A DNA stretch of 64,000 nucleotides from Dyadobacter sp. 50-39 (lineage in GTDB: Bacteria; Bacteroidota; Bacteroidia; Cytophagales; Spirosomataceae), in contig MKSR01000028.1 in assembly GCA_001898145.1 (NCBI GenBank), positions 1 to 64,000 on the forward strand. Reading direction: 5' to 3'. The notes under the pieces were generated by a model. The model saw only the letters and a list, made by a program, of their open reading frames with translations, made no database searches and was not told where the DNA came from. The translations under genes were made by a program, and so were the position numbers. Shown piece after piece: positions 375 to 20,995 of the stretch (positions within the stretch are counted from its first letter, which is position 1; each line of letters starts with the position of its first letter).

Positions 375-565
375 AGTAAAGAATGTTTAAGATGAACAAA
401 AATCGAATTGTTACAATTGAAAGTAAAGATGTTTAGAGTGTAAACATCTTTTGATCAGCCAGTTAGTGCATATGTTATGGAAGTTTTTGTTCAGTTTTGT
501 CACTTCCATGATACCCTACATTTTCATTGGGATTTCTTGCATTTTTTGGTAAGCCTGAAAAACGC

Positions 566-2466: not shown

Positions 2467-3558
2467 ATGGAAAAATTGCCAATTGATGCGTTATGGGAGA
2501 AATATATCCACTATGCCCATCTAAACTCGGCTTTTGATGATAGAATTGGGATTTTGGATGGAAAGTCATCCGCAATCCTTCTTTTTTCAGAGCATAAAAA
2601 TAAGTACTATCGGAACGAGGTTTCCGTAAATTTTTTGAGCGATTTAATTGAACAAATCAATTTCAATAGATTATTTTCACTAGGTTATGGGCTCACTGGT
2701 GTTGGAATTTTGATAGATTATTTGGTCGAAAGAGGAGTGCTTGATGAAAGTTCGATAGATATTTTTTCAGATGTTGAGTTAAATATTTCTAAGTTTTTGG
2801 CCAATACTGGAATCACTGACATATCTTTGGCATCAGGATTATCAGGTTATGGGATCTATTTTTTAAAGCGATTAAAGCGAGAAAAATATAATACCCAAAG
2901 TTATAACCTCTATTTAAATCAACTTGATTCTATATACAACACTCTTGAAAAATGCATATTATCGAAGGATGGGGATAGTTATGATATTTCTTTATGGTAT
3001 GGGAGATCTGGTTGTCTTTTATTTATCAGTGAATTGGCAAAAATTCCGCAATTTTCAAAAAGATGCGAAACTACTTGCGACCATCTAAGGGCAGGGATTC
3101 TCGAATCGCTAGCAGACTCACGATTTTCTTGGGATAAGATGCAGGCTTTTTTCGTGATGTATCAGACCGATAGATTAAATAGTTTGCAGACAGAACTCAA
3201 TGTTTTTTTTGGTGAATTCATTGTATCTGCGTCTACAAAACTGTCGGAGTTAGGTATTGCAAACGGTGCTCTATATTCACTGTTTGTTGCTATCCTGATA
3301 GAAACTAAGGGTACCTATTTTGCGGAACATTTTTTATCGAGCATCTATGATGGGATTATGTTATTGTTAAAAAATAGAAGCCCAAAAGAGCTGTTTCCAT
3401 ACGATAATCAAGCAAAAGCTATTCCCATTGGGATTGATGGAGGAATGTCAGCAGTTTTGTTGTCGTTGTGGTCTATTGACTCAAAGAGATATTTGTGGTT
3501 GAATTTCTTTGGATTCTTTTTTGAGGAAGCAAAAATACTAGTAACTAACGAGGGGTGA
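2467..3558 (+). CDS. LanC-like (alpha/alpha toroid) protein lacking zinc ligands
   Basis: This 363-residue protein has the glycine-rich inner-helix repeats of LanC-type cyclases: GLTGVG (75-80), SGLSGYG (123-129), WYGRSG (177-182), GIANG (263-267) and GIDGGMS (322-328). LanC enzymes close thioether rings in lanthipeptides using a zinc ion held by two Cys and one His. Here the expected WCxG motif reads WYGRSG and no CH-type ligand pair is seen near the end, so the zinc site seems absent. Related zinc-less proteins occur beside peptide-modifying glycosyltransferase genes in Bacteroidota. It is the first gene of a tight five-gene run and shares one base with the next gene. A binding or scaffolding role for a peptide or sugar donor is my inference; the fold call is fairly firm. 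Confidence 0.7.
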   Translation: MEKLPIDALWEKYIHYAHLNSAFDDRIGILDGKSSAILLFSEHKNKYYRNEVSVNFLSDLIEQINFNRLFSLGYGLTGVGILIDYLVERGVLDESSIDIFSDVELNISKFLANTGITDISLASGLSGYGIYFLKRLKREKYNTQSYNLYLNQLDSIYNTLEKCILSKDGDSYDISLWYGRSGCLLFISELAKIPQFSKRCETTCDHLRAGILESLADSRFSWDKMQAFFVMYQTDRLNSLQTELNVFFGEFIVSASTKLSELGIANGALYSLFVAILIETKGTYFAEHFLSSIYDGIMLLLKNRSPKELFPYDNQAKAIPIGIDGGMSAVLLSLWSIDSKRYLWLNFFGFFFEEAKILVTNEG

Positions 3559-4823
3559 TGCGAAATAGTACCGAAAGAATTACGCTTGTGACACTTTTTT
3601 GCACAGCTCGGACAGGTCACTTTGGAATGGGGGCGTTCGTGGAAAATTTGATTGGGGAACTTCAAACTTCAAATGAGCTTAACCTTTTTCGATTAAGTAT
3701 GGATTGTGACCATGTCGACGAAGTCAGGCATTCTTTTGAAGGTGGTGAAGAATGGCTTGAGATACCAAGACCGGAAAATAAACTTTTCCTGACTGGGGAA
3801 GATTTTGTTGTTCAACATGTTTATGCTCAGCGTATTGTTGAGATTGCTTTCCCTTTTCTTGATGGAAAACAGCGTATTGTCCTGCTATGCAATACCGTCG
3901 TCCATCTCGAGATTTGCAGACTGTTGAAGGACATGCTTTCGGCCAAGCTTGTTTACGTTCATCACAATTTTTCCTGGAAATCTTATGTCAGCACGACTTA
4001 TGAAAACTATAATGCGGTTTGGGTCAGTGGAAATAGAGGGTACCATCCGCTAGCTTTTCAGGCGACGATTTATCAACAAGAAATCGCCCGACTAGCTGAC
4101 AAGGTTGTTACGGTTACAAAGCAGGCTGCGGATTTCTTGGTAAACACATTATCCATAGAAGCTGAAAAGGTCATAACGATATATAACGGGGTATCCATTG
4201 ATTCGCTCAAAACCGGACTAAATGTGCTCGAAGCTAGAAGCAAGTTCCATATAGACCATAAAGAAAAAATCATCTTATTTTCTGGACGACTTGTCAAGGA
4301 AAAGGGAGTTCATTACCTAGTACAGGCATTCCATTCTGTTTTGAAAGATTTGCCTGACGCAAGGCTTCTTATTATAGGAAATGGTGACTACAGAGAGTAT
4401 TTGAAAGCAGCATCTAATATCTGGACGAAAATAACATTTACAGGCGAGTTACCTCGATCTGAGGTTTTAGCGCTCTATCAGGTTGCTAACCTGGGAGTAA
4501 TGCCATCCTTACAAGAACAATGTAGTATCTCGGCAATTGAAATGAGACTGAGTAATATTCCAATGGTCGTGAGTGCGGTTGAAGGAATGGACGAAGTTTT
4601 TGTTGATGATGAGGATGCGCTAAAAATCAATTACTATTTAGATGAAAATAAGATGATTTACTTGTTGCCGGAGGAGCTTAGCCAGAAAATTATTTTACTT
4701 CTGACAAATGAATCATTAGCGAGGAGACTTTCCGAGAACGGCAAAAAAAAGGCGTTGATTGATTTTGATAGCCGACGAATGGCTGACCGTTATCTTGAAA
4801 TGTTCGGGTCACTAAACTGGTAA
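3558..4823 (+). CDS. GT4-type glycosyltransferase (peptide-maturation-associated type)
   Basis: A 421-residue GT-B glycosyltransferase. The C-terminal Rossmann half carries ILFSGRLVKEKGVHYLVQAF (around residue 235) and the E-x7-E donor-site pattern in EQCSISAIE (around 319-327), typical of GT4. The N-terminus (GHFGMGAFVENLIGEL) and overall length resemble the Bacteroidota glycosyltransferases found in radical-SAM/GG-peptide clusters, though no radical-SAM gene is seen here. I chose the ATG at 3,558, which overlaps the previous stop as TGATG and has a GAGGGG ribosome site just upstream; a GTG one codon earlier is also possible. It probably transfers a sugar from a nucleotide donor onto the cluster's product. 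The acceptor is unknown. Confidence 0.8.
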   Translation: MRNSTERITLVTLFCTARTGHFGMGAFVENLIGELQTSNELNLFRLSMDCDHVDEVRHSFEGGEEWLEIPRPENKLFLTGEDFVVQHVYAQRIVEIAFPFLDGKQRIVLLCNTVVHLEICRLLKDMLSAKLVYVHHNFSWKSYVSTTYENYNAVWVSGNRGYHPLAFQATIYQQEIARLADKVVTVTKQAADFLVNTLSIEAEKVITIYNGVSIDSLKTGLNVLEARSKFHIDHKEKIILFSGRLVKEKGVHYLVQAFHSVLKDLPDARLLIIGNGDYREYLKAASNIWTKITFTGELPRSEVLALYQVANLGVMPSLQEQCSISAIEMRLSNIPMVVSAVEGMDEVFVDDEDALKINYYLDENKMIYLLPEELSQKIILLLTNESLARRLSENGKKKALIDFDSRRMADRYLEMFGSLNW

Positions 4824-4841
4824 TTTAAATTAAAGGGGATT

Positions 4842-5675
4842 ATGTCGCACATAGAAGTACACATTAACGCAGACAATAGCGTAACCTATACTGCTGTGGG
4901 AGGGTACGAATCGCGGGTGGATTCGGTCATAACAATGTTTAATCTTGCATTTGAGCAAATTCAAATGGGGAAAATTGCTACCCGCCATTTTTGTATTTCT
5001 CTTGATGATGTTTCTTCCCCCATTGGTAACTCATTGACGTTTGGGTTTACGCGGGCTTCTGGAGTTGTAGTTTGCCCGGACTATACGTTTATTAAATGGC
5101 CTGAAGTCGGTATCATCAACTATATTGAGACAATAAATTCGATAGCTCATGCGGGCTCTCAGCCGTGGGAAGTAGACAAAATGTTTTGGATCGGTAATCC
5201 CAGAACGCAAGACCTTCGCTACAAGTTAATCGAAATTGGTAACAAAAATAGAAACGATTTTATGTTCGTTCCCATGAACTGGTTGCGGAACTCGGCGCGC
5301 GGGCAGATGCACAGCTATACTTATTTTGTGTCACTGGCAGACCATACAAAATACCGATTTCTAGTTGATTGTGGAGCTTTCGGATACAGCGGTCGGTTAA
5401 AATTTCTGTTGTTTAGCGGCCGTCCGATTTTTTTAGTTGAAAGAACCGAAGATAAGCAAGATCATTTTTATCCTGAACTACGCCCATATGCACATTTTAT
5501 ACCCGTCAAGGCAGATTTGAGTGACCTGGTAGAGCAGTATGAATGGGCCAGGGCGCATGAGAAAGACGTGGAAAAGATTGCCGAGTCCGCTTTATCTTTT
5601 GCAAAAGCGAACCTTTCTGAGACGGCGATTTTGAGGTATTTGTCGGATCAACTTAAAAACTACCTTTACAAATAA
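4842..5675 (+). CDS. GT90-like (CAP10/LpsA family) glycosyltransferase
   Basis: A 277-residue protein whose second half has the family pattern of GT90/LpsA enzymes. FLVDCGAFGYSGRLKFLLFS (around 176-195) corresponds to the usual 'D-G-x-G-x-S-x-R-L-x-x-L-L' block, followed by FYPELRPYAHFIPVKADLSD and an alpha-helical tail with IAESALSFAKANLS. The family includes bacterial lipopolysaccharide-modifying enzymes and eukaryotic protein O-glucosyl/xylosyltransferases such as Rumi/POGLUT1. It is 18 bases after the GT4 gene and has an AAAGGGG ribosome site. With the other two transferases it suggests stepwise building of a glycan. The acceptor specificity cannot be read from sequence. Confidence 0.7.
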   Translation: MSHIEVHINADNSVTYTAVGGYESRVDSVITMFNLAFEQIQMGKIATRHFCISLDDVSSPIGNSLTFGFTRASGVVVCPDYTFIKWPEVGIINYIETINSIAHAGSQPWEVDKMFWIGNPRTQDLRYKLIEIGNKNRNDFMFVPMNWLRNSARGQMHSYTYFVSLADHTKYRFLVDCGAFGYSGRLKFLLFSGRPIFLVERTEDKQDHFYPELRPYAHFIPVKADLSDLVEQYEWARAHEKDVEKIAESALSFAKANLSETAILRYLSDQLKNYLYK

Positions 5676-5678
5676 ATT

Positions 5679-7571
5679 ATGATAAATTTGGAGAGTATTT
5701 CAACTGCCGAAATGCCCGGTGTTTCCGTGTTAATGCCCACCTACAATCAATCGACCTTTATTCTTCGGGCGCTTAACAGCCTTCGTAGGCAAAGTTATCA
5801 AAATTGGGAGTTGATAATCATTAACGATGGCTGTACGGACGATACGGACGAAATTTTGCGCACTTGTGCCCTGGATATTGACTACCGTTATCTTCGTAAT
5901 AAAGTCAATATGGGTCTTGGATACTCTCTGAATAGAGGTATCGATGAGGCCCGGTATGAGCTCGTAGCATACTTGCCTTCCGACGACATATTCTTTGAGG
6001 ATCATTTAGGTTCGCTGATTTCAGTGCTCGCGGATCCTGGAGTTTTGCTTGCATTTTCGGGGACGCTCTTCAATTATTCAGAGACGCTTTCGTCAAGTAC
6101 GCCGCTGCAGACATTGGGGCAGATAGATGGGACTGCATTGCAGCTGGTGCAGGTTATGCACAGAAAAGTCGCGGAGAGATGGATTGAGCGAAGCGAGCTT
6201 GTCACCGCGGACTTGGAGATCATGTATTGGGAAAAGCTTTCTTCACTTGGCCGGTTTGTACCTAGTGGTGAGGTCACTGCCGAATGGGTGAACCACCCAC
6301 GTCAGCGGAGCAAACTGATCAGTGAATTGTACGGTGGGGGGATAAGTACCTATAAGCAATTCTATGGTGTCTCCGATCCTATTACTTTTATCGGATCCGG
6401 GAACTACATTGAGGAGCAGGCAATCGTTGATGAGTTAGAAGATGTACAGGTTACTAGGGAAGGGCGCGGACTGAAAATTTTACTTGTGGGGGAGTTATCC
6501 TTCAATCCTGAGCGGATATTGGCCTTTGAGCAGGCAGGGCACTCGCTATTCGGGTTGTGGATTCAGGCATCCGGATTTCTTTGTTCTGTGGGGCCATTCC
6601 CTTTTGGAAATGTCACGACACTGACCTCGTTTGATCAAATTAATGAGATCCAGCCGGACATTATCTATGGCCTGTTGAATTATAGCTCCGTTCATCTCGT
6701 GACATCGGTCCGGGCGCAGTTTCCGAAAATACCTTTGGTTTGGCATTTTAAGGAAAGTCCGTTCTATTGTAGACAATCCGGTAGCTGGGAGGACCTGATA
6801 CGGCTGTATAGAAGTGCCGACGGTTGTATTTACCTTAATGAGACTATGAAGGCTTGGTTCGACGACATTGTCGGAGCCACCGCAGCGCCGACGTATATAC
6901 TAGATGGTGACCTTCCGAAAATTGACTGGTTTAAAACTGAAAGAAAGCCTCGCTTATCGCTAAGTGAGGGAAGTCTTCACACAGTAGTAGTGGGCAGACC
7001 ATATGGGATTCATCCTGATCATCTGGCGATTCTCTCGCGGGATAATGTTCACGTGCATTTTTACGGAAATTTCCAGCAGAATGTTTGGCGAAAATGGATT
7101 AACGAGGCAAATCTTTTGGCACCAGGATATTTGCATATTCACGACAACTGCGAACCATTTGACTGGGTTGAGGAGCTATCCCAATATGATGCGGGTTGGG
7201 GGCACGTATACGATTGCAGTAATTTCGGTGAGTTGCTTCGCGCCACCTGGAATGAGCTTAATATTCCTGCTAGGATACCGACGCTGATTTGTGCTGGGCT
7301 TCCAGTACTCATTAAGGATAATTCCCGCCATGTCTGCGCGACGGAGAGCCTTCTGGATAAGAAGGGTTATGCCGTGAAATTCAATTCATTTGACCAGATT
7401 GGGGCTTTGCTTTCGAACTCTGTGGAGATGGAAAAGATCAGGGAGCAAATATGGTGTTCACGGCACGAAATTTCATTTGATCACAACGTCAACGATCTAT
7501 TAGCTTTTTTTGAGAAAGTGATTGACTATAAGAGACATGAGTGTAGTATTGATGATCTTCAACTAAGCTAA
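5679..7571 (+). CDS. Two-domain glycosyltransferase (GT2 fused to GT4-like domain)
   Basis: This 630-residue protein starts with a GT-A/GT2 domain: VSVLMPTYNQ (15-24), the INDGCTDDTDE block (about 47-57) and the acidic PSDDIFFEDH (about 99-108) that would bind the metal and nucleotide. A second region from about residue 265 (GLKILLVGELSFNPERILAF) to the end has GT-B-like organisation, with VPLVWHF-type and LPVLIKDN-type segments and no obvious transmembrane helix. It begins three bases after the GT90-like gene. A bifunctional enzyme adding two sugars is a natural reading, but the C-terminal half is divergent and could be a non-catalytic acceptor-binding domain. Confidence 0.75.
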   Translation: MINLESISTAEMPGVSVLMPTYNQSTFILRALNSLRRQSYQNWELIIINDGCTDDTDEILRTCALDIDYRYLRNKVNMGLGYSLNRGIDEARYELVAYLPSDDIFFEDHLGSLISVLADPGVLLAFSGTLFNYSETLSSSTPLQTLGQIDGTALQLVQVMHRKVAERWIERSELVTADLEIMYWEKLSSLGRFVPSGEVTAEWVNHPRQRSKLISELYGGGISTYKQFYGVSDPITFIGSGNYIEEQAIVDELEDVQVTREGRGLKILLVGELSFNPERILAFEQAGHSLFGLWIQASGFLCSVGPFPFGNVTTLTSFDQINEIQPDIIYGLLNYSSVHLVTSVRAQFPKIPLVWHFKESPFYCRQSGSWEDLIRLYRSADGCIYLNETMKAWFDDIVGATAAPTYILDGDLPKIDWFKTERKPRLSLSEGSLHTVVVGRPYGIHPDHLAILSRDNVHVHFYGNFQQNVWRKWINEANLLAPGYLHIHDNCEPFDWVEELSQYDAGWGHVYDCSNFGELLRATWNELNIPARIPTLICAGLPVLIKDNSRHVCATESLLDKKGYAVKFNSFDQIGALLSNSVEMEKIREQIWCSRHEISFDHNVNDLLAFFEKVIDYKRHECSIDDLQLS

Positions 7572-7576
7572 AATTG

Positions 7577-8206
7577 ATGAATTATCGGGTTGTTACGGAT
7601 AATGGCTTTTTGGGGCCGGCTTTGACTTTGCTTCTTCAAAAAAACAAATCGAACTGTGCAGCGGCCTACTTCACTTCACTTGAATTTAATGCACAAGGAT
7701 TTATTGAAACTCCGGGTGTTGTATTCTTTGGTTACGATGTTTCTTTGGATAAGTATACACAGTGGATTGAAAAACTAAGTTGCCTTAATGCCTATGTGCC
7801 TCGACGTCTTTACATTATTGATGATTTGTCATCTATTTTTTGTGCACAAATTTTCTCTATTCCTGACATCTCATTTGTGTATCGAGATGACCTTTTAGAT
7901 GCATTGGATGATATTTCAGAAATATTGATAAATTCTTCGATCTATTTGTCGATATCCATAAAGAAGTCGATAGAAAACTCGTCCGGCACAACGCTGTCAA
8001 CCCTGTCTAAGAAGGAAAAGTTGATTGCCAAATTGATTGTACTGGGGAAAGATAACTGGCAAGTGTCGGAAATACTTGACATAAGTATTGAGACAATAAA
8101 AAACCACAGGAAGAATATTAAAAGAAAACTGAACATTGATGGGGGCAAAAACTCGCTCATTAATTGCCTTTTTTCCAATGTTCCATGGCTTTTTTTGACG
8201 GACTAG
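7577..8206 (+). CDS. LuxR-type transcriptional regulator
   Basis: About 209 residues. The C-terminal ~60 residues form a LuxR/FixJ-type helix-turn-helix: LSKKEKLIAKLI, then WQVSEILDISIETIKNHRKNIKRKL with the family's conserved 'ETIKNHRKNIKRKL' recognition part. The N-terminal ~130 residues look like a degenerate receiver fold with no convincing phospho-Asp. It follows the fused glycosyltransferase by 5 bases and precedes the peptide gene by 104 bases, so it is well placed to control the peptide gene. I chose ATG 7,577 over the TTG one codon upstream. Its signal is unknown. Confidence 0.8.
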   Translation: MNYRVVTDNGFLGPALTLLLQKNKSNCAAAYFTSLEFNAQGFIETPGVVFFGYDVSLDKYTQWIEKLSCLNAYVPRRLYIIDDLSSIFCAQIFSIPDISFVYRDDLLDALDDISEILINSSIYLSISIKKSIENSSGTTLSTLSKKEKLIAKLIVLGKDNWQVSEILDISIETIKNHRKNIKRKLNIDGGKNSLINCLFSNVPWLFLTD

Positions 8207-8310
8207 GAGTTTGCGGGAATGTATAGCCAAAAAAAAATGAAAATGGCTATTGATTGATTGCTGCATTACGAGATACCTTAGCGAGGTAAACTTATCTAAC
8301 CATAATTTTT

Positions 8311-8619
8311 ATGTCAAACAAGAGCAGAGTGTTAAAAAAAATTGCTGTCGCCGCCGAGATTGCGACACTTAGTGTTGGTTTGTTGACCGCCGTGTCAATG
8401 GAAACACTGGCTAGTGGAAGCGGCGGAGGCGGTGGTGGTAACGGTTGTTACTACACTACTACTATCAGCTGTGCCGGAAATATTATTTGGTCGGGTGGGG
8501 AGCGAATTGTATGTAACTTTACCGGTACATATGGTTCTCCAACTAACTGTACTTACACCGAGTGTGGTAATGGGAATGCCACTTATGAGCGGCATTGTGT
8601 ACAGCCTACTAACCCGTAG
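8311..8619 (+). CDS. NVEALA-like secreted peptide precursor
   Basis: A 102-residue small protein in two parts. Residues 1-~35 are basic then hydrophobic (RVLKKIAVAAEIATLSVGLL) and end in METLASG, which resembles the NVEALA motif of small Bacteroidota secreted peptides. A run of six glycines (38-43) leads into a C-terminal core of about 58 residues with six cysteines (46, 54, 68, 80, 85, 96), many Thr/Tyr/Asn and three N-x-T triplets (NFT 69, NCT 79, NAT 89). NVEALA-type genes are commonly found beside 6-bladed propeller lipoproteins, as here. I infer that it is the substrate of the three glycosyltransferases upstream; disulfide-bonded mature peptide is also likely. No homology search was possible. 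Confidence 0.7.
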   Translation: MSNKSRVLKKIAVAAEIATLSVGLLTAVSMETLASGSGGGGGGNGCYYTTTISCAGNIIWSGGERIVCNFTGTYGSPTNCTYTECGNGNATYERHCVQPTNP

Positions 8620-8624
8620 GAATT

Positions 8625-8661
8625 ACCAGCCGAAATGAATAATTAGTTTGTTTCGGCTGGT
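8625..8661 (+). terminator. Hairpin after the peptide gene (terminator or attenuator)
   Basis: Perfect 11-base arms (8,625-8,635 and 8,651-8,661) with a 15-base loop, followed by T-rich sequence, 5 bases after the peptide stop codon. It would make the short peptide transcript more abundant than the downstream propeller/pump genes if part of the transcripts read through. Confidence 0.8.
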
Positions 8662-8706
8662 TTTTATTTCTAAATATAGATTAATAAATAAGATTTGTTT
8701 ACAATT

Positions 8707-9924
8707 ATGAAGTTTAGATTATTTCCTTCTATTGTATTGATTTGGCTATGTATTTCTCTGGACGCATGTAAGCAATCGGGTGGTAAATGGGATGAGTTGG
8801 TGAGCACGCTACCACGAAACAATGTTCAGATTAAAAGTGCTGAATTGATTGAATCATATGATCTTTCCGATAAAATCGAAAGTATCGAGGTGATCCCCCT
8901 GATAGAGCAAAAAGGACATTATTTGGGAGATATATATAAAGTTTTTTATCACAACGGGCAATTTGTTGTGCATGATCGTGTGAATGCTCCACAGATATTG
9001 CTTTTTGATAGCGAGGGGCAATTTAAAAAGCAAATACTAGGAATTGGAAAGGCGCCACATGAGGCTTTGCAGATTGACGATTGCTGGGCGAATAATGATG
9101 GGACATTTGACGCATATGATTTTGCTCAGAAGAAGGTGTATCACTATAATAGTGCTTTTGATCTAGTTGATACTCAGAAGGGTGAAACAAATTTGTATCA
9201 CAACTTATTTCGGATCCCGGGAAGCAGGGACTTTCTAGCATACTCCACCTTGAATGCCTACAATACAACTTTGGATTCCCGTAACTATCAGTTAGAAGTC
9301 CTAGATGACGAACTGAAGGCGAAAAAGGGTTTTTTGCAATATTTCGAGGATATCAAAGGTGCAAACATACTTGCATTCAACTCGCAATTCCATGTTTATG
9401 GAGATACTGTAAGATTTATCAGGCCGTACGATAATAATGTTTATAACATTGTTAACGGGGAATTCAAGTCTGTTACTGAAATGAAATTTTCGGAAAATGC
9501 TTTGGATTGGGATAAATTTCAGGGAATAGTGAAGAGCAACGAATTTGTTTTCAAAGATAGAAAGGTTCATCCGCGGGAGAAAAATAAATTGCTGTCTAAT
9601 TTTTCTTATTGCTATGGAGACTGGGTGGAAGACGATGACCATGTTGTTCTCTCATCTATGAAAAATGGAAAAGGGTTTCAAACTATCATTGACAAGAATA
9701 ACTCTCGCAATCAAATAAATGCGCGTTATTTTACGGAAACAAAAAAATACAACATGATTTTACCAGTGCTAACTTCATCGGGAGACGGATATTTGATTGG
9801 ATTCATTAACTCTCTAATGCTTTCTAAACATTTGTTGGGTGAATCGTCATTAAAAAAATATGTGGATCCAAAATTTAATAGCTTTCTTCTCGTAAAATTA
9901 AAACTGGCTTCAAAAAATGCGTAA
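8707..9924 (+). CDS. 6-bladed beta-propeller lipoprotein
   Basis: About 405 residues. The N-terminus has a lipoprotein signal ending in the lipobox SLDAC. The body matches the Bacteroidota 6-bladed beta-propeller family: an early IESIEVIPLIE strand, GDIYKVFYHNGQFVVHD, then ILLFDSEGQFKKQILGIG, the usual 'F-D-x-x-G-x-F-x-x-x-I-G-x-G-x-x-P' signature, and a C-terminal GYLIGFINSL strand. Family members are encoded next to NVEALA peptides; their biochemical role is not established. I chose the ATG at 8,707 rather than a TTG at 8,695 because it starts a normal signal peptide. It overlaps the next gene by 8 bases, so the two are co-translated. Confidence 0.85.
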   Translation: MKFRLFPSIVLIWLCISLDACKQSGGKWDELVSTLPRNNVQIKSAELIESYDLSDKIESIEVIPLIEQKGHYLGDIYKVFYHNGQFVVHDRVNAPQILLFDSEGQFKKQILGIGKAPHEALQIDDCWANNDGTFDAYDFAQKKVYHYNSAFDLVDTQKGETNLYHNLFRIPGSRDFLAYSTLNAYNTTLDSRNYQLEVLDDELKAKKGFLQYFEDIKGANILAFNSQFHVYGDTVRFIRPYDNNVYNIVNGEFKSVTEMKFSENALDWDKFQGIVKSNEFVFKDRKVHPREKNKLLSNFSYCYGDWVEDDDHVVLSSMKNGKGFQTIIDKNNSRNQINARYFTETKKYNMILPVLTSSGDGYLIGFINSLMLSKHLLGESSLKKYVDPKFNSFLLVKLKLASKNA

Positions 9925-10516
9925 ACTATTGTTAATATTTGTTTCTGCTATTTTTTTTATTTCATGCAAGGTAGATGGGGGAAATTCGGAAAACATTTCA
10001 CGTAAATTAAGTGACTCTTTGACAAAAGTTTCAAGCGAAAATGACTATCTTAAATTATTGCTTTCTATTGGATATAGGCCGAGTTTACATAAGGATATAC
10101 CTCCAATTGATGATGCTTATGAAGTAACTGATACTGCTTTTTTGAATCCCGTCAAGATTTTCTCCAAAGCAGACACGAGGAAGCAACTTGTTATCAGGTA
10201 TACCGCCATTGGGTGTAACTCTTGCACTGATGAATTGTTCAAAACGCTAAACAGGACTCCGGAATTGAGCAAGCGATACGATATTTTGGTACTTGCTAGT
10301 TATTCTGATTATATGTATTTTTTAAAATGGTACAAAATCGCCGAGGTAAACTGCAAGGTTCTATTTCTTTCAAAGGGGAAAATTCCCAACGACCTGGAAA
10401 ACGATAATACAAGTTATGCATTTGTGTTGGATAGGGGAAAGGTATCATCTATGTTTATTCCGAATAGTTTGTTCCCGGATCAAACGAAGGTGTATTTCAA
10501 ATCGCTGCTGATGTAA
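9917..10516 (+). CDS. Thioredoxin-like lipoprotein
   Basis: 199 residues with a lipobox (FFISC) in the signal peptide and a CNSC pair near residues 100-103 after a beta strand (LVIRYTAIGCNSC), the position of the CxxC site in thioredoxin folds. The rest (YDILVLASYSDY, CKVLFLSKG, YAFVLDRG) fits a small alpha/beta domain. It is membrane-anchored, outside the cytoplasm. It overlaps the propeller gene. Disulfide formation or isomerisation in the six-cysteine peptide is an attractive role, but is inferred from position only. Confidence 0.65.
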   Translation: MRKLLLIFVSAIFFISCKVDGGNSENISRKLSDSLTKVSSENDYLKLLLSIGYRPSLHKDIPPIDDAYEVTDTAFLNPVKIFSKADTRKQLVIRYTAIGCNSCTDELFKTLNRTPELSKRYDILVLASYSDYMYFLKWYKIAEVNCKVLFLSKGKIPNDLENDNTSYAFVLDRGKVSSMFIPNSLFPDQTKVYFKSLLM

Positions 10517-10539
10517 TCGTTGAATGTTTTAAGCGTTTT

Positions 10540-11622: not shown

Positions 11623-14600
11623 TCAAGCGAGCTATTTTGTCCCCTTTTAGCACTATTCTATTATTTATCTTTTTGGCAAGTGCCGGGTTGCTCGTCTCAC
11701 CGTTCTTGAACGTTTCGAACGGTGCAGGTAAGCAGGCACAAGATGCGATCTATATCGATTTTACTTGGGAGAATGCGAGCCCAAGTGCGGTCGAGACCAA
11801 TGTTACCGCAAAATTGGAGGGGATTATTTCGACGATTAGAGGTATTAAAAATGTCTTTTCCACATCGACAGTGGGTAGAGGAAGTCTGGTGATTGAGATT
11901 GACTCACGGAGGAAGTACCAGGAAATCAGATACGAGATAACATCCGTCGTCCGGCAGTATTATAGCAAACTTCCCAAAGGAGTGAGTCATCCGGTTGTTA
12001 GCAACAGACCAACATCCTCCGCATCAAGCAAACCTATTGCATCCTTCGCAATTGCGTCTTCGACAGTCGAAAATGTTTATGAGGTTATAAATAGTCAGCT
12101 AACTCCTGAATTTTCTGCAATAGAGCAAATCTACAAAATTGAGATCCACAACAAGCCGGAAGTCAATTGGTACCTGGAACTCGACCCTGCGCTGTTACTC
12201 CGGTTGGGAATTTCGGTGGATGACGCTTTGGCACAGATTCGTCCGTACCTTTCAAATAGTGATTTAGGAACTATTCAAGTCAAGATGGGCGGGGATAGCC
12301 CTCGGTCTGGTACTATCCAGCTGCGGATTATTAATGTACTGGATTTTCGACGGGTTTGGGAGCTGTTACCCATCAAATCCTCAGGGGGGGGCGTAACCCG
12401 TTTGGGAGATTTAGCCGAACTGAACTTTCGTCGCTCAGTAGATCAGTCAATATTTCGTGTGAATGGACGTGACGCATTAGTCGTTAGCATCTTCGCATTG
12501 GATCAGTCAAATTACTTTTTTCTGGGAAAGTATATTAAACAGGCTGTGGGGCGCTTCCGAAGCAAGCTACCGAAAGGTTTCGTTTTTCATGTTCTTACGG
12601 ACGAGGGGGGAGAACTTGTCAAGAAATTAGAGGGTTTTTTATTTCAGGTTGCATGTTCCCTATTGATTGTTACGGTCTTTCTTTTCTTTTCTACCCGAAA
12701 CGTTGCGTACGCCCTGGCACTCGTGTATGCAACGTTATGTAATGTTCTGATATCGCTGCTTGTCTTTTTCTTTCTGGGCTTACAGATTGACATTTATTCG
12801 ATAACCTGGCTGTCTGTGGCAGTTTGTTTGACTTTCGACAATGCAATTGTTATGATTGAGCATTGCAGAAGTTCCAGGCGTTATCCGGTACTTTTGACAA
12901 TGATTGGGAGTGCTATGGTAATAGTCGGGACAGTTAGCATCACTCTTCTTACCACTAGGGAAATAGCTGAGTGGTTTCAGAATTTTGCATGGATAACGAT
13001 AGTCTGGGTCTTTGTGTCTGTCATTGTTGCAGCTTTGCTGGTGCCCGCTCTAGTGTCAACGACCGTCAACGGTACTCAGAGGGTGAGGATACCAATCCAG
13101 CGATATAAGAGAATTGTCAGATGGAATAGTATTTACATCCGTTTCATAACTCGCTTGATGTCACACAGGAAGAAGCTTTGTGCCGTGCTTATTCTGATAT
13201 TTGGGATGCCTTTTTTTTTGTTGCCACGTAGCCTCGAGGGAGACAATATCGTCTCTAAATCATATAACGGTACTTTTGGTTCGGAGCCATATGTCAGTCA
13301 CATTCGTCCCTGGTTGGATGTACTTTGCGGAGGTCTGCTACAACTTTTTTCCAAAGGATATACCCCAAAGTCGTGGAATTCTGAAACGAGCTCGCCCAGT
13401 ATATATATACAGGCGAGTATGCCGAAGGGAACTACAATAGGACAGATTGCAAGAGTGTTGCGGGTGGTGGAAAATGCTGTAGAGGGTGCGGAGGGCGTTG
13501 AGAGATATACTGTAACTGCTAATTCGGGCAATCAGGCAATTATTCATGTTCTGTTCAAGTCCTTTGACCGGTCAAATCAATTGGCGATAAACTTAAAAAG
13601 GAGAGTAGAACGTGCAGTTCTGAAAGTCGGATTAGCCGAGTTTAATATTTATGGCGTTGATAGGGGGTTCAGTAACGTCCTTGATGCTGCTTCTATGAAC
13701 AGGAGCATTAGTCTTTACGGTTATGACTACTTAACACTGACTGCATTCGCAGATCAGGTGAAAAGACGTCTTCTAACTTACAGCAAAATCACCCGTGCTT
13801 CGATCAGCGATCAAGAGTATTGGTCCAGCAAGGGTATTGGTAGACAGCACGAGCTTGTTAAGCAGGAGAACTCGCGAATACTTTTGGCCTCTTCGCCACT
13901 ACTTCGAACCGCTCGTTTTTTCGAAAACTCGAATAGCTCTTTGGGCGTCTTAGGCGGGTCCGATTATCCTCGGGAGATACTGTTGCATGTAGACACACCC
14001 GGAGATCTCTGGTGGAACCTTTGGCGACCTTTGGGTGATGATTCGGTTGGGATAGCCCGTCTGGGTGACCACTACAATGTCGATCTGGCTGAACATGCTG
14101 CAGCAATAAATCGTGAGAACCAACAATACAAATTATACGTCAATTTCAATTACATAGGTGACGAAAGTTATAGCAAAGAGGTGATTGAGTCATTGCTCCT
14201 GGATATTAGGCAAAAACTTCCGCTGGGGTATAGAATAGATTCGGACCTTGCCTCGCGAAATAATATCAGCGAAAACACGATTGCTGCATCCGTTCTTGTG
14301 AGTATGGCTGTGGTTTTCTTTGTGTGCGCAGTAATTTTGAATAGTATTCGATTGTCCTTGGCAGTAATTGCTACGATACCGATTTCTTACATCGGAGTCT
14401 TCGTAGCTGGTAGCTTGTTTGGGTTTAGTTTCTCGCCGGGGGTTTATCTGTCATTTGTCATATTAACGGGAGTCAGCGTCGCAGGAGCTTTGCATGTAGT
14501 GATTACGTACCATCAAGCGGGGGCCACGCGACGGAACCGTGGCAGCGTGTTATCATTTGTCAGGGCGATAAACCAAAGATTTCTCTTTATCCTGTTCAGT

Positions 14601-14762
14601 AGAGTAACCCTGCTTGCCGGGCTGGCGTCCTATTTATTGGAGGTAGATGTCGATGATTTCTGGTTTTCAGTGACGCTAAGCGTACTCGGGGGAAGTATCT
14701 TTTCGCTTCTAGCAACATTTGTGTTTTTGCCACTTTTCTGCTTTTCTGTTGACAAAAAATAA
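11619..14762 (+). CDS. RND-family transporter subunit, divergent
   Basis: 1,047 residues with the duplicated RND architecture: one N-terminal helix, a large periplasmic part, helices 2-6, another periplasmic part and a C-terminal helix bundle. The TM4 segment reads CLTFDNAIVMIEH (about 402-414); of the two Asp residues that carry protons in AcrB-like pumps, the first is kept and the second is Asn. Conservation is lower than in the next gene, especially in the C-terminal half. Translation probably starts at the TTG in TTGA, overlapping the adaptor stop. Together with the next gene it suggests a heteromeric pump, as known for MdtB/MdtC, with the more diverged subunit here. Confidence 0.85.
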   Translation: MIKRAILSPFSTILLFIFLASAGLLVSPFLNVSNGAGKQAQDAIYIDFTWENASPSAVETNVTAKLEGIISTIRGIKNVFSTSTVGRGSLVIEIDSRRKYQEIRYEITSVVRQYYSKLPKGVSHPVVSNRPTSSASSKPIASFAIASSTVENVYEVINSQLTPEFSAIEQIYKIEIHNKPEVNWYLELDPALLLRLGISVDDALAQIRPYLSNSDLGTIQVKMGGDSPRSGTIQLRIINVLDFRRVWELLPIKSSGGGVTRLGDLAELNFRRSVDQSIFRVNGRDALVVSIFALDQSNYFFLGKYIKQAVGRFRSKLPKGFVFHVLTDEGGELVKKLEGFLFQVACSLLIVTVFLFFSTRNVAYALALVYATLCNVLISLLVFFFLGLQIDIYSITWLSVAVCLTFDNAIVMIEHCRSSRRYPVLLTMIGSAMVIVGTVSITLLTTREIAEWFQNFAWITIVWVFVSVIVAALLVPALVSTTVNGTQRVRIPIQRYKRIVRWNSIYIRFITRLMSHRKKLCAVLILIFGMPFFLLPRSLEGDNIVSKSYNGTFGSEPYVSHIRPWLDVLCGGLLQLFSKGYTPKSWNSETSSPSIYIQASMPKGTTIGQIARVLRVVENAVEGAEGVERYTVTANSGNQAIIHVLFKSFDRSNQLAINLKRRVERAVLKVGLAEFNIYGVDRGFSNVLDAASMNRSISLYGYDYLTLTAFADQVKRRLLTYSKITRASISDQEYWSSKGIGRQHELVKQENSRILLASSPLLRTARFFENSNSSLGVLGGSDYPREILLHVDTPGDLWWNLWRPLGDDSVGIARLGDHYNVDLAEHAAAINRENQQYKLYVNFNYIGDESYSKEVIESLLLDIRQKLPLGYRIDSDLASRNNISENTIAASVLVSMAVVFFVCAVILNSIRLSLAVIATIPISYIGVFVAGSLFGFSFSPGVYLSFVILTGVSVAGALHVVITYHQAGATRRNRGSVLSFVRAINQRFLFILFSRVTLLAGLASYLLEVDVDDFWFSVTLSVLGGSIFSLLATFVFLPLFCFSVDKK

Positions 14763-14770
14763 TTGTAGGG

Positions 14771-17700
14771 ATGGTCAAATATTTGATTAACAGGCCAGTT
14801 TCGGTTTTAATATCGTATTTGGCATTCATTATCCTCGGGATTTTTGCGTCCTGGCACATACCGGTCACTACAATGCCGGATATTGACATTCCCGAAATCA
14901 CAGTTCATGTTGTAAGGGATAACGCATCAGCAGAAGATCTGGAACGTCGGGCTGTGGGTACTTTGATAGGCCATTTACAACACCTATCGAATGTTTCGGA
15001 TATTGTCAGTGAGACAAGGAATTCTTATTCGATCATCAGGATAACGTTTCAACATGGAACAGATATCAACATGTCTTTTGTCGAAGCGAATGAACAGATT
15101 GATCTGGCAATGACTTCATTACCCCGGGAGTTTGAACGCCCTAAGGTAGTAAAAGTAAACACAAATGATATTCCAGTATTTAGTTTTAATATTAACTATC
15201 GAGGCCAGAAGCAAATCGAAAAATCCCGGGACTTTCGGGAGTTGAGCGATTTTGCCAAGAATGTTGTGAAGCGGAGGTTGGAACAACTGCCTGAGGTGGC
15301 TTTTGTTGACATAAGTGGTACAGAGGAGTCAGAAATCATCATTAAGGCAAAAAAGGAATACCTACGTGCACTCGATCTGAATGTACGGCAAATGCAGGAG
15401 TTGCTGACAGACCAGAATCCTGGCTTTCAGTCTATTATCGTGACAGAAGGCGATTATCAATACCAATTAGGTATAAGAGGTACTAACCTTAACGATGTTG
15501 AGGATATTAAATCAATCGTGATTCCCCGGCAGGAAAAAAAAATGCGTTTGGGAGACGTGGCCGACGTTTCGATCGTCAAAAGAAAATCCAGAGGAGAGTT
15601 CTATTTCAACCGAAGTCGTGCCGTGAACATGGCAATCATAAAGACCTCAAATGAGAATTTGGACCAGCTTGAGGAAAATGTGCAGAAGGTGATAAAAGAT
15701 ATCGAAAGAGAATATCCTCAGATAGCGTTTACTAAAACAAGAGATCAGACACTATTGCTAAATGTGTCAATCTCTAACCTGAAACAAGATCTGATTATTG
15801 GTCTTGTTTTGGCGTTTTTAATATTGCTTTTGTTTTTGCGTGAGTCGAGAGCACCGATGCTGATAGGAATTACCGTTCCGACTTCGCTCGTGTTGACAGT
15901 CTGCTTGTTTTACCTTTTGGGGCTTTCAATAAATATCATATCGCTATCTGGTCTTGTCCTGGGGGTTGGACTTATGATTGACAATTCTATTATTGTGATA
16001 GATAATATTACCCAGCACAGGAGAATGGGTAAATCATTACATGATGCTTGTGTAAATGGGGTTAATGAGGTGATCAATCCACTTTTGTTTTCGACCATTA
16101 CAACAACGTCTGTTTTTGTACCGCTGTCGTTTCTTAGCGGGATAGCCGGAGCGTTGTTTCATGACCAGGCAATGGCTATTTTTATTGGACTTGCTTCGTC
16201 TCTGATTGTCTCTGTTACGCTGCTGCCGATTCTATACAAAGTAATGTATGACAGTCTCGGAGATTCTACTCGGATGAAGCCTGATGTTCATAAACAGGGT
16301 TTATTTGAGAAGATTTATGAACTGGGATTTAAGTGGACGTTTGAAAATAGAGGCATTATTATAGTTGCTGCCATTGCGTTACTCGCGGCAGATGTTTGGC
16401 TATTTAACAAATTGCCTAAAGAGAAGATGCCCTCTCTTAAATACGACGATACGGAAGTGTATATCGATTGGAATGAGGATATTAATCTTAGCGAAAATGC
16501 CAATCGGGTATTGGGATTACTTGGCAAAATTGAAACTTTGGTTGAAGTGTCTGAGGCGTCCGTCGGTGAGGAAAGCTTTTTGCTGTCCAAGGAACGGGCA
16601 TTATCTGTCTCGGAAGCCAAACTGTATCTAAAGTGCAGGGGCCATGTTCAGGTGAGTAAGGCGGCGGATCAGTTAAGCAAGCTTTTTTCGAATAGGTTCC
16701 CGTCAGCAAGAATCAGATTTTCGCCTCCCAAAAATATTTTCGAAAAAATATTTGGAGGTGAAGAAAGCACTATTCAAGTTCAGTTGTTTGACATAACCAA
16801 AGACAAGTCGCCGAGCCACGAGGCTGCTGCTAGATTTACAGAGGCGATAACTTCTAATTTTAAAAATGCGATCATCGAACCATTGCAATACCAGTCGGAA
16901 GCTATAATTGTACCTGATATTGAAAAATTGAACCGATATAATGTATCGCTGAAAGTTTTTACCGAATCTCTCAATAAACGTGTTGCAATACAGAATTTAG
17001 GTAGAGCAGATCAAGGAAGCAAAAGTATTTCAATCGGTTTTGATAGCGGGGTAGTGTCAGACCTAAGCCAGCTACTACGAAATCTATTTGTAGAAAATTC
17101 AGAGGGAGTTTCGATACCCGCCTCAACACTTGGAACTATCCAGATGTCAAGGCAATTGAAAAATCTTAACTCCGGAAAACTTGGCAGGTATATTCCTATT
17201 AATATTGTATGTGAAAATCCGGATGAAATTATTGCTTTTATTAAAAGACTTGATCGTAAAGATGAGAATATTGAAGCTAAGATTGCTGGTCAGTTCCTTG
17301 CCAATAAAGCACAAGTTAGGGAAATGTCAACGGTACTTCTCGCGGCAATACTTACTTTGTTTTTCGTGCTCGGGATCCAATTTGGATCCCTGGTTCAATC
17401 AGCTATCGTACTTTGTGAGATTCCCCTTGGCATAGGAGGGGCATTGATCTTTCTCGGAATAAATGGAGCTTCGATTAATCTGGTATCTTTAATCGGACTG
17501 GTTGTAATTTGCGGTATTATCATCAACGACTCCATTATTAAAATAGACACTATTAACCGCTACCGGCAGTCCGGGAATTACACACTGGCAAATGCCATAC
17601 ATCTGGCTGGTAAGAACCGGTTGAAAGCGATAACAATGACCGCATTGACAACAACGTTGACAGTTGTGCCTTTTCTATTTGCTAAGGACATAGGGTCGTT

Positions 17701-17842
17701 GTTGCAACAGCCACTTTCGCTGGCCATCATCGGAGGGATGTTTGTTGGGACACCGGTTAGTCTCTATTTTATTCCATTGGTGTACTACCAATATTATAAC
17801 TTGACCGATCGTTTTGGATTTTCGAAAAAGAAGTGGTCATAG
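14771..17842 (+). CDS. RND-family transporter subunit (AcrB/HAE1-like)
   Basis: 1,023 residues, close to the normal RND length. The start MVKYLINRPVSVLISYLAFI, the pore-domain block MPDIDIPEI and the TM4 motif GLMIDNSIIVIDN (about 397-409) are typical of the hydrophobe/amphiphile efflux group. A second repeat has the TM10-like GLVVICGIIINDSI segment. It begins 8 bases after the divergent subunit with a TAGGG ribosome site. Its stop codon overlaps that of the convergent TolC gene. Substrate cannot be inferred by sequence; the gene neighbourhood suggests the cluster's peptide or a small molecule. Confidence 0.9.
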   Translation: MVKYLINRPVSVLISYLAFIILGIFASWHIPVTTMPDIDIPEITVHVVRDNASAEDLERRAVGTLIGHLQHLSNVSDIVSETRNSYSIIRITFQHGTDINMSFVEANEQIDLAMTSLPREFERPKVVKVNTNDIPVFSFNINYRGQKQIEKSRDFRELSDFAKNVVKRRLEQLPEVAFVDISGTEESEIIIKAKKEYLRALDLNVRQMQELLTDQNPGFQSIIVTEGDYQYQLGIRGTNLNDVEDIKSIVIPRQEKKMRLGDVADVSIVKRKSRGEFYFNRSRAVNMAIIKTSNENLDQLEENVQKVIKDIEREYPQIAFTKTRDQTLLLNVSISNLKQDLIIGLVLAFLILLLFLRESRAPMLIGITVPTSLVLTVCLFYLLGLSINIISLSGLVLGVGLMIDNSIIVIDNITQHRRMGKSLHDACVNGVNEVINPLLFSTITTTSVFVPLSFLSGIAGALFHDQAMAIFIGLASSLIVSVTLLPILYKVMYDSLGDSTRMKPDVHKQGLFEKIYELGFKWTFENRGIIIVAAIALLAADVWLFNKLPKEKMPSLKYDDTEVYIDWNEDINLSENANRVLGLLGKIETLVEVSEASVGEESFLLSKERALSVSEAKLYLKCRGHVQVSKAADQLSKLFSNRFPSARIRFSPPKNIFEKIFGGEESTIQVQLFDITKDKSPSHEAAARFTEAITSNFKNAIIEPLQYQSEAIIVPDIEKLNRYNVSLKVFTESLNKRVAIQNLGRADQGSKSISIGFDSGVVSDLSQLLRNLFVENSEGVSIPASTLGTIQMSRQLKNLNSGKLGRYIPINIVCENPDEIIAFIKRLDRKDENIEAKIAGQFLANKAQVREMSTVLLAAILTLFFVLGIQFGSLVQSAIVLCEIPLGIGGALIFLGINGASINLVSLIGLVVICGIIINDSIIKIDTINRYRQSGNYTLANAIHLAGKNRLKAITMTALTTTLTVVPFLFAKDIGSLLQQPLSLAIIGGMFVGTPVSLYFIPLVYYQYYNLTDRFGFSKKKWS

Positions 17843-19285
17843 CACTTTGAGTTTCCTTCTCATTTCGAAATCATACAGCGTGAGATATCGAATCTGATAT
17901 TTCGTAATCCAGTAATTTCTCATAGTGGCTAAGTACTCAAGGGCGGCCCGATCTTTTTCAAGTTGAGCAAAATTGAAATTGCTAAAAGTGTAGTTTCCAG
18001 TGGAGTATTTTTGTCGTGCAATTTCATATGTTTCGTTAGCCACGACATTGGCTAATTTGGCTAACCGAATTTGCTCGACTATGGATTCCCATCTTGCGCA
18101 CGCGTAGACTACTTCTTTTTCTGCTGTTAGACTTTGTTGAGAAATTAACTCCTTTTCAACTTCCATTGCTGCCTGAATCCTTTTTCGGCTGGCTTTATTG
18201 GCACCCCAATCCATGATTGGAAGAAAGAAGCCCATTGAGACGGATTGATTATTAAGGAGGTTTTGATAAGCATCACCAGCGCGTTGCCCTGTTTGCGTTA
18301 ATCCCAGGTTTGCCATAATGCTTACCACTGGAGCTGTTTCGGCTTTTGTTTTTAGGAGCTCTTTCTTTAGTTCCAGCTCTCTTCGCTGAAAATTGTGACT
18401 GAAATATTTGTTCTGCCTGGATTCTTGTAATGCTACTTCGGGGTCCACTGTGTAAAAGGGAACGCTGTCAGGCAGTGCTAGTTCGATATTTGACGCCAGC
18501 GGCAGGTCGAGGAACCTGAGGAAGGCATGTTTGGCTACTTTCAGATCCAGTTTGGAGTTCGAAATTGACTTTTGGGCGTTGATGAGACTTACCTTGGACT
18601 GTAAAACTTCACTAAGCTGGGAAGTGCCTATCTCTAATCTCGCTTCCAGAGCTCTAAGTAAATCAATAATATTTTTCTCGTTTTGCAAGTCCAACCTCAA
18701 CCTTGTTTCCGCTTGTAAGAGGTCACAATAGAGTTCGGTAGTTTTGATTGCGATCTCTTCGATACTTTCAATTTTCTTGGACTCTGCTTCGCTGATTTTG
18801 AGTGACTCAACTTTCTTATCCCACTTAATCGGATTAAAGAAAATATTTTGCTGACTATAACTTATTGTGAACGGTACCGAAGTATACGCAGTGTTTTTGT
18901 AACTACCAAAGTTATCAATTCTGTAAAGAGACGTTCCGACAGATAGAGTGCCGCCAGTAATGGCTACACTTTGTGTTGCGCTCAGATTTAGGCTGGAACT
19001 AGCGATATTTTGCGAGACAAAATCGCTAGCACCATTTGGCAGTGTTATGGGATTGATCGTTCGGTAATAATTGGGTAACGTTCCTGAAATGGCAACTCTT
19101 GGATTTAGGCCGGCTTTATACCGTTGGTATGTCCAGTACGAGAGTGAGTAAGTGTGTTCCGCAATTCGCTGCTCACGCGAAGACTGTTTGGCAGTTTCAA
19201 TTGCGACATCCAATGAGATCTTGGTTTTATCTTGGGCACTTAATTGGAAAGGCAGTACTATAAATAGAACAACAAATATCCTCAT
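17837..19285 (-). CDS. TolC-like outer-membrane efflux channel
   Basis: 482 residues with a signal peptide (LFIVLPFQLSAQ) and the two repeated halves of the outer-membrane efflux family, each with long coiled helices (SLDVAIETAKQSSREQRIAEH at the start; ELISQQSLTAEKEVVYACAR and YEIARQKYSTGNYTFSNF in the second half). It supplies the outer-membrane exit for the adaptor and RND pair but is transcribed towards them; the stop codons overlap by six bases at 17,837-17,842. Confidence 0.9.
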   Translation of the reverse strand: MRIFVVLFIVLPFQLSAQDKTKISLDVAIETAKQSSREQRIAEHTYSLSYWTYQRYKAGLNPRVAISGTLPNYYRTINPITLPNGASDFVSQNIASSSLNLSATQSVAITGGTLSVGTSLYRIDNFGSYKNTAYTSVPFTISYSQQNIFFNPIKWDKKVESLKISEAESKKIESIEEIAIKTTELYCDLLQAETRLRLDLQNEKNIIDLLRALEARLEIGTSQLSEVLQSKVSLINAQKSISNSKLDLKVAKHAFLRFLDLPLASNIELALPDSVPFYTVDPEVALQESRQNKYFSHNFQRRELELKKELLKTKAETAPVVSIMANLGLTQTGQRAGDAYQNLLNNQSVSMGFFLPIMDWGANKASRKRIQAAMEVEKELISQQSLTAEKEVVYACARWESIVEQIRLAKLANVVANETYEIARQKYSTGNYTFSNFNFAQLEKDRAALEYLATMRNYWITKYQIRYLTLYDFEMRRKLKVL

Positions 19286-20732: not shown

Positions 20733-20995
20733 AGCTTTTTTTTAATGACGTCCTGAAGCATCTGCTTGTCCAAGCTCAGATCCGCCACAAGCTTCTTCAA
20801 CTGAGCGTTCTCTTCTTCAAGTTGTCGAAGTTTTCGCAGCTCGGCGACGCCCATGCCGCCGTACTTTTTCTTCCAGTTAAAAAAGGTGGCTTGGGAAACT
20901 CCCAGCTGTCGGCATATCTCCTCGACGCGTGTACCAGTCTCAGATTGCCTAAGCGCAAAAGCAATCTGAGCTTCTGTGAATTTCGATTTTTTCAT
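20729..20995 (-). CDS. IS3-family transposase OrfA (helix-turn-helix)
   Basis: 88 residues: an HTH_Tnp_1-type domain (FTEAQIAFALRQSETGTRVE, then QLGVSQATFFNWKKKYGG) and a leucine-zipper-like tail (LRQLEEENAQLKKLVADLS). It binds the element ends and multimerises with OrfB. It ends at the A8 slippery run. Confidence 0.95.
   Translation of the reverse strand: MKKSKFTEAQIAFALRQSETGTRVEEICRQLGVSQATFFNWKKKYGGMGVAELRKLRQLEEENAQLKKLVADLSLDKQMLQDVIKKKL

Follow-up and report, generated by a model that had tools for sequence, protein, structure and literature searches.

The subject of this analysis is a gene cluster at positions 2467 to 19285 of a 64,000-nucleotide stretch of Dyadobacter sp. 50-39 (assembly GCA_001898145.1, contig MKSR01000028.1), called here the window. 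A preliminary description had presented the cluster as one system in which a small Cys-rich peptide is glycosylated and then exported or sensed by its neighbours. All 12 open reading frames (ORFs) proved open at the positions then assigned (Table 1). The genes from 2467 to 17842 all lie on the forward strand, with intergenic gaps of -4 to +18 among the first five (2467-8206), and the TolC gene converges on them, as had been reported, and overlaps the end of the last resistance-nodulation-division (RND) gene. The hairpin noted at the peptide gene was also found: folding of positions 8600-8690 gave -30.8 kcal/mol versus an average of -12 for shuffled sequences (z -6.4). No Rfam family matched at its gathering score in window positions 1-24000. 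The genes of the supposed single system do co-occur, but they fall into two modules. One is a wider core, consisting of a secreted Cys-rich peptide, a 6-bladed-propeller lipoprotein, usually a CxxC or DUF1573 lipoprotein, and an exporter made up of adaptor, TolC and a pair of RND permeases from separate clades; the other is a rare add-on sugar cassette present in two Dyadobacter genomes.

Table 1. Features of the cluster, with window coordinates and supporting matches
Feature	Coordinates	Strand	Evidence
LanC-like protein, 363 aa, without zinc ligands	2467..3558	+	PF05147 19.6 bits; SG02 counterpart 27% identity
GT4 glycosyltransferase, TIGR04157-like	3555..4823	+	PF00534 108 bits; TIGR04157 256 bits
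GT90 glycosyltransferase	4842..5675	+	PF05686 98.2 bits; best PDB matches POGLUT2, POGLUT1, Rumi
630 aa protein with N-terminal GT2	5679..7571	+	PF00535 94.6 bits at residues 16-136; SG02 57% identity
LuxR-type helix-turn-helix regulator	7574..8206	+	PF00196 54.1 bits; counterparts beside the peptide in SG02 and G097
Secreted Cys-rich peptide precursor, 102 aa, 6 Cys	8311..8619	+	Hydrophobic N-terminus; SG02 counterpart
Terminator-like hairpin	8625..8661	+	16-pair stem and U tract
6-bladed beta-propeller lipoprotein (DUF5128)	8695..9924	+	PF17170 95.9 bits
CxxC lipoprotein, of redox type judging by motif and location	9917..10516	+	CNSC
RND periplasmic adaptor	10540..11622	+	TIGR01730 151 bits
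RND permease 1 (RND1), divergent clade	11619..14762	+	ACR_tran 198 bits; clade support 100/100
RND permease 2 (RND2), partner clade	14771..17842	+	ACR_tran 515 bits; clade support 100/100
TolC-type outer membrane channel	17837..19285	-	PF02321 (OEP) 96.9 bits

The window holds a tripartite RND system, with permease, adaptor and TolC together, preceded by the peptide and two lipoproteins. The peptide runs from a hydrophobic N-terminus through METLA/SGSGGGGGG into a Cys/Thr-rich core. Its earlier label, NVEALA-like, agrees with the N-terminus and with the propeller next door, a partner that usually follows NVEALA genes (a context outside the Pfam definition), but the peptide gave no match to PF14055 (NVEALA) at E up to 10 (cut-off 27 bits), nor to any family in Pfam and NCBIfam scans. 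The likely start of the propeller is an ATG a few codons into its frame. The label of redox lipoprotein given to the next protein has one CxxC motif and its position in its favour, but no match in Pfam, NCBIfam or PDB sequences. No receiver domain was matched in the LuxR-type regulator.

The preliminary description had looked to co-occurrence in other genomes, and the gene set is indeed clustered a second time, in Dyadobacter sp. SG02. There, LuxR, peptide, propeller, DUF1573 lipoprotein, LanC-like, GT4, GT90, fused GT2, adaptor, TolC and RND2 genes follow each other on one strand, with RND1 divergent from the rest, so that the overall gene order differs from that of the window. Identity between the two copies was 57% for the fused GT2, 45% for GT90, 33% for the peptide, 31% for LuxR, 27% for the LanC-like protein and 24% for RND1. 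In the window the cassette precedes LuxR; in SG02 it is flanked by the DUF1573 lipoprotein and the adaptor, a position occupied in genome G097 by TonB-linked and DUF4249 genes instead. The two peptides have KSRVLxKI, VGL and SGSGGGG in common, and their cores diverge. Among 222 genomes of the family, the LanC-like query matched five at E 1e-5, the window's own included (SG02 at 1.7e-32), of which the three others were weak (2e-7 to 9e-6) and adjoined ORFs of about 1,030-1,050 aa resembling lantibiotic dehydratases by eye. A peptide profile, built from the window and SG02 sequences only, found the same two genomes, which are also the only two of the 222 with both a strong LanC-like match and the peptide. 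Because a limited number of first-pass candidates was scored per genome, absences in these and the other whole-genome searches are not proof.

Loci with the core but none of the window's sugar genes exist in a further Dyadobacter, in a different family of the order and in Phocaeicola. RND1 was found in three of 48 genomes of the genus, in three of 101 of the class (the window's counted in both) and in seven plasmid records, two at near full-length coverage; the five partial plasmid matches (20-39% covered) were excluded as loci, and the one in B. finegoldii had no annotated NVEALA or propeller gene nearby. This left seven RND1 loci: those of the window, SG02, G097, G294, G316, Phocaeicola massiliensis (OY726023.1) and Persicobacter (CP012861.1). 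Six of them carry small Cys-rich ORFs with hydrophobic N-termini (read off ORF lists for G097 and G316), and CxxC proteins are present in four core loci besides the window. The window's sugar genes had no match in the scanned stretches of G097, G316, G294, P. massiliensis and Persicobacter.

The G097 locus comprises LuxR, two small Cys-rich ORFs (60 and 63 aa), a 409 aa lipoprotein, a CxxC lipoprotein, the TonB-linked protein and DUF4249, adaptor, TolC, RND2 and a divergent RND1. G316 has a peptide, a DUF4221 protein (66 bits), a CxxC lipoprotein, a short adaptor-like ORF, a second peptide, a second lipoprotein without relevant match, adaptor, RND2 and RND1, and Persicobacter an adaptor, a lipoprotein with a sub-threshold propeller match, RND1, RND2 and TolC. 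The P. massiliensis and G294 loci both contain a signal peptidase, a CxxC protein, adaptor, RND2, TolC and RND1. In P. massiliensis, 11 NVEALA-type ORFs lie within record bases 100,000-144,000; nine precede an ORF of 328-385 aa and two an ORF of 276-287 aa, the 276 aa one having CxxC and DUF1573. All five peptides examined in this way in G294 precede ORFs of 347-393 aa, and five of six PF14055 genes of that genome lie 13-27 kb from RND1 (P 4e-9 under uniform placement, tandem duplication ignored). PF14055 matched the three peptides tested from these two loci at 45.4-52.5 bits. In a comparison of 16 peptide sequences (rows G316b and Pm0 start one codon off; the misframed row G294e is excluded), ten had exactly four Cys.

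A tree of 20 permeases (seven RND1, seven RND2 and six ordinary permeases of the window's genome) placed the RND1 proteins in one clade and the RND2 proteins in another, each with 100/100 support and both separate from the ordinary permeases. The proton-relay Asp of transmembrane helix 4 was kept in both window permeases, in five RND1 proteins, in all seven RND2 and in all six ordinary permeases. It was missing from RND1 of SG02 and G097 (L025 16307-19441 and L074 3-3101), whose RND2 partners retain it, which suggests for these two loci a mixed complex driven by RND2.

The association was compared with 30 control RND loci of the window's genome, taken from 33 listed ACR_tran places outside the window after excluding three that were pieces of two split genes, one of them inside a fetched stretch. 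The screen used 11 propeller queries (each core locus screened without its own) and one rule for small Cys-rich ORFs. A peptide-propeller pair was detected in four of seven core loci (window, SG02, G294 and P. massiliensis) versus none of the 30 controls, which all come from one genome and include stretches shorter than 19 kb (hypergeometric P ~5e-4, by hand arithmetic). Propeller matches fell in the same four loci (five of eight stretches) versus none of the controls, and at least one ORF passed the small-ORF rule in 8/8 core stretches versus 6/30 controls. Six ORFs following peptides in P. massiliensis and G294 matched propellers of other loci, as did a further G294 propeller close to the adaptor (DUF5128, 141 bits) and one more G294 ORF with no such peptide before it. 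Gene content, conservation and pairing were read directly from the loci and their controls, and the earlier claims that a propeller neighbours the peptide and that paired RND genes accompany it hold also in distant relatives.

In the sugar cassette, the LANC_like match lies below its cut-off of 23.2 bits. None of the three zinc ligands (Cys, Cys-His) aligns, the WCYG and CHG of the comparison proteins L027 and L028 falling on VFFG and a gap; two of four comparison LanC proteins (L029 and L033) likewise have no zinc ligands. The name LanC-like reflects the weak profile match; by its ligands the protein is not a lanthionine cyclase. Checked for the alpha/alpha toroid fold of LanC, its predicted structure was an all-helical model too poor to use (mean predicted local distance difference test score, pLDDT, 48), with no PDB match at E 0.001. 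GT4 scored below the 400-bit threshold of TIGR04157, the GT4 family of peptide clusters. The 630 aa protein had been called a fused GT2-GT4; its GT2 part stands, but the C-terminal half gave no significant match and no GT4 domain was confirmed there, and its structure prediction was equally unusable (pLDDT 37). Among 395 genomes of the class, this fused GT2 was found in two, that of the window and that labelled G563, and among the named genomes scanned in SG02 only. In G563, which belongs to another family, it stands alone (L037 17765-19621, E 8e-219).

GT90 exceeded its profile cut-off of 24, and a profile search of the PDB returned POGLUT2 (1.5e-20), POGLUT1 (2.2e-15) and Rumi (6.8e-12) and nothing else at E 1, with alignments spanning the C-terminal part only. 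POGLUT1 is described as an inverting GT90 that transfers glucose to Ser of EGF-like domains and uses Asp133 as its catalytic base, the substrates of such enzymes being small Cys-rich EGF-like domains (PMC5543122). Since the best solved matches modify small Cys-rich domains, kinship with the animal protein O-glucosyltransferases would fit glycosylation of the peptide. The window protein is a bacterial GT90, shorter than the animal enzymes, and has no signal sequence by eye. Its D55 and D56, common to both cluster copies and unaligned in other GT90s, are a candidate for the equivalent of Asp133. GT90 was rejected as a marker of such clusters: it occurs in nine of 222 family genomes, and the seven besides the window and SG02 do not have it in such a cluster. 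A GS-x-x-x-C stretch is present in both cassette peptides and bears a faint likeness to the POGLUT2/3 motif, which in two sequences is no evidence.

Searches with TIGR04157 found strong GT4 relatives in three of 395 class and three of 390 order genomes, the window's included in each. Three of the four distant GT4 relatives so found adjoin peptide-export genes, in support of the earlier statement on GT4/LanC-like proteins in Bacteroidota peptide clusters; around the fourth, G615, no exporter was recognised. The GT4 of G360 lies with a LanC-like protein, TolC, a C39-type ABC exporter and a GG-type peptide; that of G558 with proteins of radical S-adenosylmethionine (rSAM) type, a C39-type ABC exporter and lipoproteins; and that of G051 with a GT25-like protein (below cut-off), a VKOR-C39-thioredoxin protein, another sugar transferase and a C39-type ABC exporter. 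The C39-ABC, GG and rSAM names were assigned by eye, with a profile test for the G051 VKOR-C39 protein only. A sugar-peptide cluster of this last make-up, different from that of the window, lies at L071 455-14426 in a genome of the genus other than the window's, with TIGR04157-like GT4, GT25-like, VKOR-C39-thioredoxin, a further sugar transferase and ABC exporter genes.

Pfam scans of the 12 cluster proteins gave no match to a dehydratase, signal peptidase or rSAM enzyme, nor to a flippase, polymerase or ligase; no C39 peptidase ABC exporter was found among them, and no SunS-type enzyme above its NCBIfam cut-off. In a study of Bacteroidales peptide clusters, LanC-like proteins without key residues adjoin carbohydrate enzymes, and these rSAM/LanC-like/GlyS clusters of ribosomally synthesized and post-translationally modified peptides have peptide and export genes as the window does; unlike it, they use GG-type leaders, mostly C39 ABC exporters, and rSAM enzymes (PMC10352776), whereas the window's signal looks Sec-type and its exporter is of the RND type. 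Glycocins combine a Cys-rich peptide, a dedicated glycosyltransferase and a thiol-redox partner. The cluster resembles them in all three, but has several glycosyltransferases and RND export, and neither the C39 exporter nor the SunS-type enzyme. With the NVEALA systems it shares a short precursor with a hydrophobic N-terminus, an ALA-type site, a variable Cys-rich core and an adjacent propeller, and two NVEALA loci, those of P. massiliensis and G294, have the same paired RND clades. It differs from them in its sugar cassette and LuxR gene, in the lack of a signal peptidase match among the 12 proteins and in a peptide without the long pro-segment that precedes NVEALA.

NVEALA-propeller pairing is also seen on plasmids. 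In the part of P. vulgatus pPvulCL10_1 covered (1-89,990 of 92,536 bases), each of the five annotated NVEALA genes has the gene of a 6-bladed propeller or a BF3164 lipoprotein behind it on its own strand, so that five of seven propeller-type lipoprotein genes have an NVEALA gene before them, and P. dorei pBdorCL06T03-4 has three such pairings, out of three, within the 24 kb covered. One pPvulCL10_1 unit continues with redoxin, lepB, O-antigen-ligase-type and transglutaminase genes, broadly like P. massiliensis. Two Phocaeicola stretches (L151 1697-9195 and L084 13603-20272) have an NVEALA unit followed by lepB and O-antigen-ligase-type genes, with redoxin and transglutaminase in L151. The genes after the NVEALA unit are possibly a maturation set. 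To our knowledge, no function is known for NVEALA peptides and their propeller partners. Among the papers listed from an open-access library, which omits most subscription journals, none described NVEALA or this gene set and none was on DUF4221, DUF4934, DUF5128 or BF3164, and the string PF14055 appeared there only in malaria and enzyme-profile contexts.

Elsewhere in the window, the start of a tyrosine-recombinase-type gene (3-386, minus strand; Arm-DNA-bind_5, 42 bits) is cut by the contig end, and an IS3-type transposase pair (19878-20995, minus strand; rve, HTH_21, HTH_Tnp_1) lies immediately beyond TolC; together they suggest a mobile or rearranged stretch. Spread of the cassette by plasmids was rejected, as the fused GT2 and GT90 had no plasmid match, and so was viral spread, the RND1 and GT90 profiles having no viral match. 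A defence-system reading was rejected as well: in a PADLOC scan of eight cluster proteins (adaptor, RND and TolC proteins excluded), the LuxR-type regulator alone matched, weakly, to two models (24.5 and 13.9 bits). On the forward strand beyond the cluster lie an RHS/DUF6443 protein with a C-terminal Tox-SHH nuclease-like domain (29080-32388; 25.2 bits, above cut-off), a gingipain-type peptidase of family C25 (35354-38671; 229 bits) and a beta-lactamase-family serine hydrolase with a long C-terminal part (48471-50366; PF00144, 185 bits).

We consider it about an even chance that the cluster secretes a peptide through an exporter of its own, fitted here with a glycosylation cassette, and from the gene content we infer each biochemical step, which way transport runs and what the peptide does, as follows. 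The LuxR-type regulator would switch on the peptide gene, and the hairpin 3' of it may raise peptide mRNA above that of the downstream genes. The cytosolic step would be the addition of sugars to Ser or Thr (or Cys) residues in the core by the GT90, GT4 and GT2 proteins; the LanC-like protein would serve there as a putative helper or substrate holder and not a cyclase. The hydrophobic N-terminal segment would take the peptide across via Sec, with cleavage predicted close to the ETLA/SGS site. The CxxC lipoprotein may then aid disulfide formation, the propeller lipoprotein may bind its own cognate peptide, and the adaptor, the paired permeases and TolC would export it. On this account the product would be a secreted, disulfide-bonded and probably glycosylated peptide. 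Tandem variable peptides, each with a propeller and also borne on plasmids, fit toxin/immunity or signal/receptor pairs; the most likely role would be a peptide directed against, or signalling to, close relatives, with the propeller as immunity or receptor partner.

Several observations weigh against this proposal. Peptide product, glycosylation and export are predictions from the genes: the cluster is real and conserved, but the earlier label, glycopeptide-type, depends on an inferred glycosylation of the peptide. The full cassette with the peptide occurs in two genomes only, the structure predictions for the LanC-like and fused GT2 proteins were both poor, and Ser/Thr content, tried as a mark of glycosylation, did not separate the sugar-cassette peptides from the rest. 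The GT4 neighbourhood of G615 has no recognised exporter gene within 39 kb. With regard to the core, RND pumps are known chiefly as transporters of small molecules or toxic compounds, and neither NVEALA plasmid, that of P. vulgatus or that of P. dorei, was among the RND1 matches (E 1e-20). On pPvulCL10_1, two of the seven propeller-type genes lack a preceding annotated NVEALA gene. The propeller-like 409 aa lipoprotein of G097 had no Pfam match, and in Persicobacter no peptide was placed beside the lipoprotein, whose propeller match was below cut-off. Automated screening detected no pair in G097, G316 or Persicobacter and matched the window propeller weakly (2.5e-4), and the six control loci that passed the small-peptide rule had no propeller beside the ORF.

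If the core secretes the peptide, the glycosyltransferases might still make a separate glycan or glycolipid, having only been captured nearby; this we regard as unlikely, yet as the strongest of the alternatives. GT2 and GT4 enzymes are common in polysaccharide loci, and both the GT90 genes outside such clusters in seven of nine genomes and the solitary fused GT2 of G563 would agree with it. Such capture sits poorly, however, with the four sugar genes of SG02, which lie inside the core where G097 has other genes, with a set kept together while the identity of its LanC-like, GT90 and fused GT2 members fell to 27, 45 and 57%, and with the lack of any flippase, polymerase or ligase match among the 12 proteins. 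Somewhat less probable still is that the RND complex serves as a pump for efflux or self-protection, with the peptide and propeller as envelope sensor or pump accessory and not cargo. The usual substrates of RND systems, a LuxR regulator suited to sensing and the plasmids with peptide-propeller pairs but no RND1 match would suit such a pump; the strong variation of cores among tandem copies under a conserved leader is unlike a pump subunit, and several peptides occur per pump. Closure of thioether rings by the LanC-like protein, as part of a modified lanthipeptide cluster, could draw on the weak LANC_like match and the Cys- and Thr-rich core but is very improbable, as no zinc ligand aligns and no dehydratase was matched among the 12 proteins.

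For the proposed secretion of the peptide, a broader form may be stated, tentatively and at less than even confidence: a two-permease RND machine for Sec-delivered, Cys-rich NVEALA-type peptides with their own propellers would operate across Bacteroidota, gut species and plasmids included, and with a Dyadobacter cargo glycosylated by a GT90 relative of the animal protein O-glucosyltransferases it would constitute a new class of Gram-negative secretion. Because these peptides are now linked with two particular RND clades, they have a first testable role, secretion, with named records in which to pursue it. If the Dyadobacter peptide is indeed glycosylated by GT90, it would represent a new type of peptide natural product, and the cluster would offer a genetically simple bacterial model for the enzyme family that O-glucosylates animal Notch.

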